DNA from: Halorientalis sp. LT38
GTDB lineage: Archaea > Halobacteriota > Halobacteria > Halobacteriales > Haloarculaceae
Assembly: GCF_037031225.1 (NCBI RefSeq)
Contig: NZ_JAYEZN010000001.1
Location: 1,302,001 to 1,366,000, forward strand
DNA: 64,000 nt
Direction of reading: 5' to 3'
Under the pieces are notes generated by a model. That model saw only the letters and a program-made list of their open reading frames with translations. It had not been told where the DNA came from and searched no databases. Position numbers and translations under genes: made by a program. Shown here in pieces: positions 2,129 through 5,919 of this stretch (position 1 is its first letter; every line of letters begins with the position of its first letter).

Positions 2129-4084
2129 ATGCAACGAGAGAAAACGAGGGGGAGTGTAGAAGTTGAGAATATCGGGGGGATCGACCAGACACAGGTCGAT
2201 CTCTCACCGGGGGTAAACGTTCTCTCTGGCCGGAATGCGACGAACCGGACCTCGTTCTTACGAGCGATACTGATGGCGCTGGGAAGTGACGAGACGGCGT
2301 TGAAAGGCGACGCCGACGAGGGGTACGTCGAACTTACCCTCGGGGGTGAGACGTACACACGAACGCTCGAGCGCAAGAACGGTCGGGTGACGACGGATGG
2401 GGACCCTTACCTCTCCGATCCGGAGATTCTGGACCTGTTCGGAGCGCTCCTGGAGGACAACGAGGCGCGCCGGACTGTCGAGCAGGGCACCGACTTCCGG
2501 GAGATCATCATGCGCCCGGTCGACACCGACGAGATCCAGCGGCGGATCGACCGACTGCTCGACGAGCGAGAACGGATCACCGATGAGATCGAAGAGATCG
2601 ACTCGCTGTCCGAGGAACGAACGAAACTGGAGAAAAAGCGTCAGCGGATCGAAGATCGAATCGAGGAGACCCGCGAGAAACTGAAAGAAAAGCGCGAGGA
2701 GATCGAGGCCGCCGACGGGAGCGTCGAAGACACGCGCAAGGAAAAAGAGAAGATCGAAGCGCACATGAGCGACCTGCAGTCGGCCCGGTCCCGCCTGGAG
2801 GATGTCCGCCACCAGCTGGAGACCGAGCGCGAGAGTCTCGCGTCGCTCCGTGAGGAGCAGTCCGACCTCGCGGACGAACTCGACGACCTTCCGGACACGC
2901 CAGCGGGCGAGATCGACGAGATCGAGTCCCGCCTGCAGCGGTTGCGCGGGCGCAAGGAGGAACTGGGATCGACGATCTCGGAGCTACAAAACGTCGTCAG
3001 CTTCAACGAGGAGATGTTGGAGGGCGACGACACCGAGTTGGTCGAATCGCTCGCCGGCAACGGCGACACCGAGTCCGACGACGAGGGGGCCATCACGGAC
3101 CAACTCCTCGACGACGACCAGACGGTCTCGTGCTGGACGTGTGGCTCGGCCGTCGAGATGGTCGAGATCGAAGAGACGGTCGATCAGTTGCGGTCGCTTC
3201 GGCAGTCGAAGTTCGCGGAGCGAAACGAGATCGACGACCAGATCGACGAGCTGAAGTCCGAACAACGGAGCTACCGGAAAGAACAGCAGCGCCGCGAGGA
3301 CATCACCCGGAAGCTCGACCGCATCGAAGAGGAGATCGAGGAGCGCGAGGAGCGCATCGAACAGTTGACCGAAGAGCGTGCGGAGTATGAGACCGAAGTC
3401 GAGGACACGGAGGCGACCGTCGACGAACTACAGGCCGAGACCGAGAGCGAGATCCTCGAGCGTCACAAGGAAGCCAATCAGCTGGAGTTCGAGCTCGACC
3501 AGCACCGCCAGGAACACGACGAGGTCGAAGAGCGCATCGCGGAGATCGAGGACCGTCTCGGCACCCGCGACGAGCTCGAAGCCGAGCGCGAGCAGGTCAA
3601 GGACCAACTGTCCGAACTCAGAACCCACGTCGAACGGATCGAGGAACGCGCCATCGAGGAGTTCAATACCCACATGGAGAACGTCCTCGACGTCCTCGAG
3701 TACGCGAACATCGAACGCATCTGGATCGAGCGCAAGGAGCGTGAGGTCCGCGAGGGTCGCCGGAAGGTCTCGAAGAGCGTGTTCGACCTCCACCTCGTTC
3801 GAACCTCGGAGTCCGGGGCGACCTACGAGGACACGGTCGACCACCTCAGTGAGAGCGAGCGAGAGGTGACCGGCCTCGTGTTCTCGCTGGCGGGCTACCT
3901 CGCACACGAGGTGTACGAGCAGATCCCGGCCATCTTGCTCGACTCGCTAGAGGCCATCGACTCCGACCGCATCGCTGCACTCATCGAGTACCTGGAGCAG
4001 TACGCCGACAACCTCGTCGTCGCGCTACTGCCCGAGGACGCCGCCGCCCTCCCGGACGACTACCACTACGTGGAGTCGATCTGA
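2129..4084 (+). CDS. Archaeal SMC/Rad50-like coiled-coil ATPase (Sph family)
   Basis: 651 residues with SMC/Rad50 architecture: an N-terminal nucleotide-binding half (about 1-140), a long charged coiled coil broken near the middle by CWTC (Cys335, Cys338) like a Rad50 zinc hook, a returning coiled coil to about residue 520, then a C-terminal half with a signature-like LSESE near 575 and a Walker B-like AILLDSLEAID near 605. The P-loop is unusual: GRNATNRTS at 34-42 has Asn-Arg where Gly-Lys is expected. I associate this variant with the archaea-specific SMC-related proteins (Sph). The gene is convergent with an rdfA-like gene; as I recall, the Haloferax volcanii pair Sph3/RdfA is needed for rod-shaped cells. 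Likely a cytoplasmic, membrane- or DNA-associated shape or architecture factor rather than a repair protein; this role is inferred. Confidence 0.85.
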   Translation: MQREKTRGSVEVENIGGIDQTQVDLSPGVNVLSGRNATNRTSFLRAILMALGSDETALKGDADEGYVELTLGGETYTRTLERKNGRVTTDGDPYLSDPEILDLFGALLEDNEARRTVEQGTDFREIIMRPVDTDEIQRRIDRLLDERERITDEIEEIDSLSEERTKLEKKRQRIEDRIEETREKLKEKREEIEAADGSVEDTRKEKEKIEAHMSDLQSARSRLEDVRHQLETERESLASLREEQSDLADELDDLPDTPAGEIDEIESRLQRLRGRKEELGSTISELQNVVSFNEEMLEGDDTELVESLAGNGDTESDDEGAITDQLLDDDQTVSCWTCGSAVEMVEIEETVDQLRSLRQSKFAERNEIDDQIDELKSEQRSYRKEQQRREDITRKLDRIEEEIEEREERIEQLTEERAEYETEVEDTEATVDELQAETESEILERHKEANQLEFELDQHRQEHDEVEERIAEIEDRLGTRDELEAEREQVKDQLSELRTHVERIEERAIEEFNTHMENVLDVLEYANIERIWIERKEREVREGRRKVSKSVFDLHLVRTSESGATYEDTVDHLSESEREVTGLVFSLAGYLAHEVYEQIPAILLDSLEAIDSDRIAALIEYLEQYADNLVVALLPEDAAALPDDYHYVESI

Positions 4085-5129: not shown

Positions 5130-5154
5130 TTTGCGTGACAGAGTGTGTGGTGTA

Positions 5155-5919
5155 ATGAATCACGACGACTCAGTCAACATCGAAGCGACGCGGACGAGCC
5201 TCACCGTGGTCGAACTCCTCCACGAACTCGACGGCGCGGGCGTGACCGAGTTGGCCGACCGCCTGGAAAAGCCCAAGAGCACGGTCCACGATCACCTGCG
5301 GACGCTACACGATCTGGAGTACGTCGTCAAGGTCGACGGCAGCTACCGGGTCAGTACCAAGTTCCTCGAACTCGGCGAATACGAGCGCGAGAGCCTGCCA
5401 GTCTACGACATTGCCAAGCCGGAACTGGATGCCCTGGCCGACCGGACCGGCGACCACGCCAACCTGATGATCGAGGAACACGGCAAGGGCGTCTACATCT
5501 ATAAGAGTACGGGCACGGACGCCGCGCGCCTCGACACCTACCCCGGCTTCCGGACGCCGTTACACTCTACGGCCCTGGGGAAGGCCATCTTCTCGGAGAT
5601 GCCCGACGAACGTATCCACGAGATCGTCGACGAGGTCAGTCTCCCGGAGATCACACCGCACACGATCACCGAACGGGACCAGCTGTTCGAGGAGATCGAG
5701 ACGATTCGCGACCAGGGCTTCGCCATCGACCGCGAGGAGCGCGCCGAGGGTATCCAGTGCGTGGCCGCGCCGGTCAACGCGGGCGGTGGCGACCGTCTGG
5801 CCGCCGTCAGCGTCTCCGGCCTCGCGAGCAAGATGCGCGGCGACCGCCTCACCGAGGAAGTGCCGGAACTGGTCATGCGAACCGCCAACAAGATCGAAGT
5901 CGCGCTGAAGTACTCTTGA
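5155..5919 (+). CDS. IclR family transcriptional regulator
   Basis: 254 residues with the two-part IclR layout. A winged helix-turn-helix at about 15-75 has the recognition stretch VTELADRLEKPKSTVHDHLR. An effector-binding IclR domain at about 80-250 includes the typical LHSTALGKAIF and the later GIQCVAAPV. IclR regulators usually control nearby catabolic genes in response to a pathway acid. Downstream on the other strand is the branched-chain 2-oxoacid dehydrogenase operon (convergent, 24 bases between stops), which is a plausible but unproven target. A GTG-type start 24 bases upstream is also possible, but the ATG at 5155 fits the TATA spacing. Confidence 0.92.
   Translation: MNHDDSVNIEATRTSLTVVELLHELDGAGVTELADRLEKPKSTVHDHLRTLHDLEYVVKVDGSYRVSTKFLELGEYERESLPVYDIAKPELDALADRTGDHANLMIEEHGKGVYIYKSTGTDAARLDTYPGFRTPLHSTALGKAIFSEMPDERIHEIVDEVSLPEITPHTITERDQLFEEIETIRDQGFAIDREERAEGIQCVAAPVNAGGGDRLAAVSVSGLASKMRGDRLTEEVPELVMRTANKIEVALKYS

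Follow-up and report, generated by a model that had tools for sequence, protein, structure and literature searches.

Comparison of homologous sequences confirms that both catalytic residues of the ATP site have been re-tooled, apparently under selection and across a whole clade, in a known family of archaeal SMC-like proteins. This is a larger change than the altered P-loop to which the original prediction had drawn attention. As judged from the alignment, the catalytic glutamate of Walker B is gone from all haloarchaeal members examined, and within the main Sph clade the P-loop lysine has become arginine, mostly together with a change of the neighbouring glycine to asparagine. The protein analysed here is encoded in a 64,000-nucleotide stretch of DNA from Halorientalis sp. 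LT38 (the window; Table 1). It is a full-length archaea-specific SMC-related protein (ASRP/Sph), scoring 683.5 bits against NCBIfam NF045487 (cut-off 300) and spanning positions 1–593 of the 593 in the profile.

The ASRP has ATPase-type head halves at its two ends, an antiparallel coiled coil and a zinc hook in mid-protein. An AF2 model (mean pLDDT 83) runs in the order head–coil–hook–coil–head, with coils flanking the CWTC hook on both sides. Structure searches with Foldseek place Rad50, Smc5/6 and MukB at the top, the best match being Rad50 in complex with ATP-gamma-S (7zr1, E 5.6e-17); a search for a solved ASRP structure found none, returning just coiled-coil matches and a weak match to the Rad50 head. 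We infer a Rad50-like dimer, joined at the zinc hook and bearing ABC-type ATPase heads. In the tree described below, the protein sits in the core arginine-type clade with haloarchaeal Sph sequences (support 97/90). Several features on which the original prediction was built are borne out, namely an open reading frame that carries GRNATNRTS at residues 34–42, the absence of the Walker A lysine (Arg40 stands in its position), a zinc-hook-like CWTC and a convergent RdfA-like neighbour.

Table 1. Features of the sph–rdfA locus, with positions in the window
Feature	Position	Strand	Evidence or remark
ASRP/Sph-family SMC-like protein gene	2129..4084	+	651 aa; NF045487, AF2, Foldseek
Non-canonical P-loop GRNATNRTS, aa 34-42	2228..2254	+	Alignment, conservation, DNA pattern search, AF2
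Arg40 codon, Walker A lysine position	2246..2248	+	Arg in 144/181 ASRPs; six Arg codons used
CWTC zinc hook, aa 335-338	3131..3142	+	CxxC kept in nearly all ASRPs tabulated
ABC-signature-like LSESERE, aa 573-579	3845..3865	+	LSESERE in 136/181 ASRPs
Walker B and D-loop region AILLDSLEAID, aa 601-611	3929..3961	+	Asp605 kept, catalytic Glu replaced by Ser606
rdfA, rod-determining factor A, about 205 aa	4174..4791	-	PF21811, E 1.1e-72; convergent with sph
IclR-family regulator adjoining rdfA	5131..5919	+	PF01614, E 1.4e-41

Homologues were collected from GTDB genomes, from 393 genomes of the phylum and from fetched loci, giving 181 aligned ASRPs. At the Gly-Lys positions of the P-loop these read NR (141), HR (3) or NK (7), and the remainder, made up of 16 Sph1-type haloarchaeal proteins and the ASRPs from outside Halobacteria, keep GK. 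The segment NATNRTS is invariant in the 144 arginine-type (NR or HR) homologues except for three ATHRSS variants, and DNA encoding it turned up in 235 of the 292 Halobacteria genomes, which cover 66 of the 77 genera in that class; the reversed control pattern gave zero matches among the genomes listed. Nearly all of the main Sph clade has NR, which rules out an odd mutation or sequencing error, and the outcome that would have spoken against the original prediction, a normal GK in the majority of homologues, did not occur. The AF2 model shows an intact P-loop fold, in which a strand (residues 28–32) leads through the loop into a helix (37–51). The window genome encodes two arginine-type ASRPs together with one ASRP whose P-loop reads GRNASNKTS and one whose P-loop reads GTNWQGKSS, and the Rad50 head of the same genome keeps GLNGSGKSS. 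A 1.6 Mb megaplasmid of Natrinema gelatinilyticum (NZ_CP100757.1) carries ten ASRP genes of arginine, NK and GK types (L204, L207, L209–L216).

Across 92 non-redundant arginine-type proteins, the P-loop ranks second of 643 nine-residue windows by conservation, and it and the signature are the two most conserved (0.97, against about 0.51 in the coils). Arg40 is written in these proteins with all six arginine codons, and Ser606 codons include both TCN and AGY, so selection acts on the two residues themselves. Arg40, Ser42, Asp605, Ser606, Ser574 and Glu577 are invariant in all 144 arginine-type ASRPs, and the high conservation of P-loop and signature argues for a pocket that is used. Lys59, which presumably corresponds roughly in position to the SMC R-loop arginine, is present in 143 of the 144 and is variable outside; we considered it as a displaced, compensating lysine, but it provides no clear compensation, since it is kept in most NK types too.

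Walker B had been predicted to remain, and this holds in part: the hydrophobic strand and Asp605 are present, but Ser606 occupies the catalytic-glutamate position. Asp-Ser is found in 144 of 144 arginine types, and the seven NK types have Asp-Ala (six) or Asp-Ser (one). Haloarchaeal GK types carry Gly, Arg, Gln or Ser at this position, and no haloarchaeal ASRP in the 181-protein table has the glutamate. Asp-Glu is kept only by ASRPs outside Halobacteria, where 11 proteins have it, two have Asp-Asn and one Asp-Asp. The signature segment reads LSESERE, not LSGGE, and the Q-loop glutamine is not conserved (Q119 in 17 of 144 arginine types, at a position judged by eye). The arginine type has Glu608 and Asp611 without exception (144 of 144 for Glu608); Glu608 is shared by six of the seven NK types and is replaced by Gly or Ser in Sph1 and by Thr in Methanosarcinia. 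The Walker A and B positions do exist in the window protein, with lysine changed to arginine and the catalytic glutamate to serine, and the hallmark residues of a motor ATPase at these positions are accordingly replaced by Arg40 and Ser606. As both replacements are common to most of the family sampled, they do not exclude ASRP membership.

The order of these changes was read from a careful maximum-likelihood tree of ASRPs computed with the motif columns removed. Methanosarcinia fall outside, and the tree recovers an Sph1 clade (99/86), with one NK protein among its members, and an arginine clade (99/90). Three changes between lysine and arginine suffice on it: arginine replaced lysine basally, and lysine came back twice, once in loci L133 and L135 and once in L156, L169 and L175 (100/100, nested at 99/91). 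The L133/L135 return is the less secure of the two, because the basal branches of the arginine clade lack resolution. A single-change tree, in which all lysine rows were constrained together, was rejected (AU p 0.0145). Both returns carry a serine-to-alanine change at Walker B. The coupling of arginine with serine and of NK with alanine is striking, though it rests on few independent events: the independent pairs of arginine with serine number only 2–3, which puts significance out of reach.

Linkage of haloarchaeal rdfA with sph has been published already (PMC10869688). At the window locus the two stop codons lie 89 nt apart and rdfA adjoins sph as in the rod-determining Sph3/RdfA pair, and RdfA is a helical protein with a C-terminal CxxC...CxC. 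Over the haloarchaeal and Methanosarcinia loci, rdfA adjoins the ASRP gene in 147 of 171, broken down as 120 of 141 NR, 3 of 3 HR, 4 of 7 NK, 16 of 16 Sph1-type and 4 of 4 Methanosarcinia loci. The NR loci with rdfA are arranged as rdfA–sph tandems (71), sph–rdfA tandems (16), convergent pairs (27) or divergent pairs (6). The convergent layout was dropped as meaningful, being found at 27 of these 120 loci with tandem layouts commoner. RdfA pairing was likewise dropped as a cause of NR, since RdfA pairs too with all 16 GK Sph1 types and four Methanosarcinia ASRPs. Of 81 genomes surveyed in the order, 80 have either both ASRP and RdfA or neither (Fisher 3.7e-14, where p is only a guide as the genomes are related): RdfA is present in 67 of 67 genomes with an ASRP and absent from 13 of 14 without one.

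At four loci that we read as Methanosarcinia from their place in the phylum (L099, L101, L102 and L104), an RdfA-like gene follows the ASRP gene on the same strand, and the ASRPs so paired keep both lysine and glutamate. Because the pairing reaches Methanosarcinia, the pair predates the P-loop change. We did not find this Methanosarcinia linkage in the published literature examined. An AF2 model of RdfA (mean pLDDT 87.5) gave zero matches to PDB folds at E below 1, and its fold is possibly new. Weak RdfA matches occur in another family of the phylum, in genomes G209 (C164:1553–2095) and G219 (C4:150314–150808; L193 and L194), neither of which has a strong ASRP match; they may form a distant or orphan branch of RdfA.

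At 23 of 57 loci (L001–L056 plus the window), a gene for an IclR-family regulator is found no more than about 4 kb from sph, and one is annotated beside rdfA–sph on H. salinarum pNRC200 and H. gibbonsii pHG3 (L201 and L199). IclR_C genes number just two in the window genome, and one is the neighbour of rdfA, so chance is an unlikely source of the link between IclR and sph; the rdfA–sph pair may be under the control of this regulator. Elsewhere in this genome, an unpaired rdfA (C1:1576384–1576935) and an unpaired sph of the GRNASNKTS type (C1:1532574–1534334) are about 42 kb from each other, which would fit a pair that has been separated.

Published genetics bear on what these proteins do. In H. 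volcanii, rods and motility require RdfA and Sph3; the deletion that abolishes rods is that of HVO_2175 (sph3), one of four candidate orthologues of the gene described here, and H. volcanii overexpressing H. salinarum Sph1 forms rods (PMC10869688). All four sph deletions in H. volcanii lower gene-conversion survival. Their effects on shape differ, with loss of sph3 and loss of sph2 acting in opposite directions and loss of sph1 or sph4 leaving it near normal, and a double deletion of sph2 and sph4 was not possible (PMC11276520). Shape and recombination are thus both served by the Sph family. The cell-shape role of the original prediction therefore stands as far as shape involvement goes (Sph3, RdfA), but 'shape only' is too narrow, given the effect of four sph deletions on gene conversion. 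A shape-independent DNA-repair phenotype, which had been named as evidence against that role, is seen in part, in that sph1 and sph4 deletions cut gene conversion with roughly normal shape.

Our preferred reading, to which we give a probability of about one half, is that the protein is a nucleotide-gated, hydrolysis-deficient, Rad50-like clamp or scaffold that acts with RdfA in shape and recombination, and is not a motor. Within the main Sph clade of haloarchaea, the re-tooled ATP site has its replacement residues held by selection. The heads would most likely still bind ATP-Mg, with Arg40 taking over the phosphate contact, and would close on ATP yet hydrolyse it very slowly or not at all. A gated clamp with little or no turnover is the likeliest state because the glutamate is gone while Thr41/Ser42, Asp605, the signature serine and the D-loop aspartate are kept. 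Lysine-to-arginine mutants of related ATPases often bind ATP and do not hydrolyse it; in Msh2–Msh6 and human MSH2 the same change impaired ATP binding (PMC6254361). The clamp would work with its neighbour RdfA, for which the gene linkage suggests direct contact, and the two would serve to control rod shape as well as to recombine genome copies, with no loop extrusion. The conserved pocket could instead serve another ligand or only the fold, and the invariant Glu608, two residues after the lost glutamate, could be a moved catalytic base. Of the structural or nucleotide-sensing role originally predicted, the non-motor part fits and is strengthened by the glutamate loss; the RdfA pairing brought in alongside it does not explain NR.

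A purely structural role, in which the heads do without nucleotide and form a constitutive dimer much like a cytoskeletal coiled-coil protein, is the alternative we take most seriously, though we think it unlikely. Such a pseudo-ATPase would account for the substitution of both lysine and catalytic glutamate and for the poorly kept Q-loop glutamine, and the gain of rods with Sph1 overexpression and their loss with sph3 deletion (PMC10869688) would suit it. A dead site should drift, however, and here conservation along the protein peaks in the pocket motifs, with Thr/Ser41, Ser42, Asp605, Ser574 and Asp611 kept, and the reversions to lysine arrive with serine-to-alanine changes. That last coupling, tight over separate changes, favours a rewired but active ATPase in which Arg40 and a relocated acid, Glu608, are coupled to Ser606 in a new catalytic arrangement, as does the confinement of Glu608 to the arginine types and most NK types, away from Sph1 and Methanosarcinia. 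We nevertheless regard this as doubtful: the independent pairs are too few for significance, and Glu608 lies three residues past the Walker B aspartate, in the turn before the D-loop aspartate, a position at which we know of no precedent for a catalytic base. More doubtful again is the specific form in which arginine-type Sph proteins are active ATPases through Arg40, the coupled Ser606 and a Glu608 acting either in cis or across on the other head; such a layout is not known to us in the SMC/Rad50 superfamily.

Compositional drift, by which a haloarchaeal preference for arginine over lysine would make the P-loop change a salt adaptation devoid of functional meaning, would explain why the change is seen only in Halobacteria. 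It is improbable, because the Rad50 head and the Sph1-type paralogue of the window genome keep GK, because the loss of glutamate and the glycine-to-asparagine change are not lysine-to-arginine effects, and because some lineages returned to lysine, as rejection of the single-change tree indicates. Least probable of all, in our estimation, is a regulatory half-site, in which an arginine type must pair with a GK-type ASRP so that a dead site is combined with a live one, in the manner of asymmetric ABC proteins. Many genomes do hold both types, Halorientalis sp. LT38 included, but the arginine type also occurs alone. We rescanned 30 near-complete genomes, scoring 30 candidates in each, and found one ASRP over the cut-off per genome; the P-loop was read in 29 of these single-ASRP genomes and was of arginine type in 28 and NK in one. 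No GK-type partner is therefore required, and obligate pairing is ruled out for the 28 genomes in which the arginine type is alone.

Sph proteins are widespread and often multi-copy in a major archaeal group, and are described as P-loop ATPases and tied to shape and gene conversion. Stepwise, conserved replacement of both catalytic residues in most of them would imply that a protein of the SMC superfamily gave up, or rebuilt, its defining ATPase cycle and retained its architecture. The question of Sph mechanism becomes one of point mutants (R40K, R40A, S606E and E608Q) in the tractable H. volcanii, with the RdfA-paired Methanosarcinia ASRPs, which have lysine and glutamate, as the ancestral comparison.

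The ASRP family has been described as bearing Walker A and B motifs (PMC9389158), and Sph1 is termed a P-loop ATPase in a title cited by PMC11276520. We found no mention of the arginine or the missing glutamate in ASRPs in a literature search whose range ended short of Herrmann and Soppa 2002 and the original ClsN paper. Coalescin ClsN of Sulfolobales is a member of the same family (PMC9389158), and Sulfolobus acidocaldarius scores over the NF045487 cut-off; ClsN differs in being a chromosome compartment protein. Arcadin-4 and the Anabaena SMC-domain coiled-coil proteins are, by their description in work cited in PMC10869688, SMC-like with a cytoskeletal or shape role, although arcadin-4 groups with Rad50 and not with ASRP (PMC9389158). 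Rad50, with Mre11, shares the zinc hook, coiled coil and head fold (7zr1) but has its own canonical P-loop lysine, an Asp-Glu Walker B and a nuclease partner; for RdfA no PDB fold match was detected. With the haloarchaeal Sph proteins (Sph1–4 of Haloferax volcanii; Sph1/Hp71 and Sph2 of Halobacterium salinarum) the window protein has family, architecture, zinc hook and rdfA linkage in common. H. salinarum Sph1 differs from it in having ASNFQGKSS with Asp-Gly. On pNRC200 of H. salinarum, a second ASRP that is presumably Sph2 is of arginine type, with GRNATGRTS and Asp-Ser.
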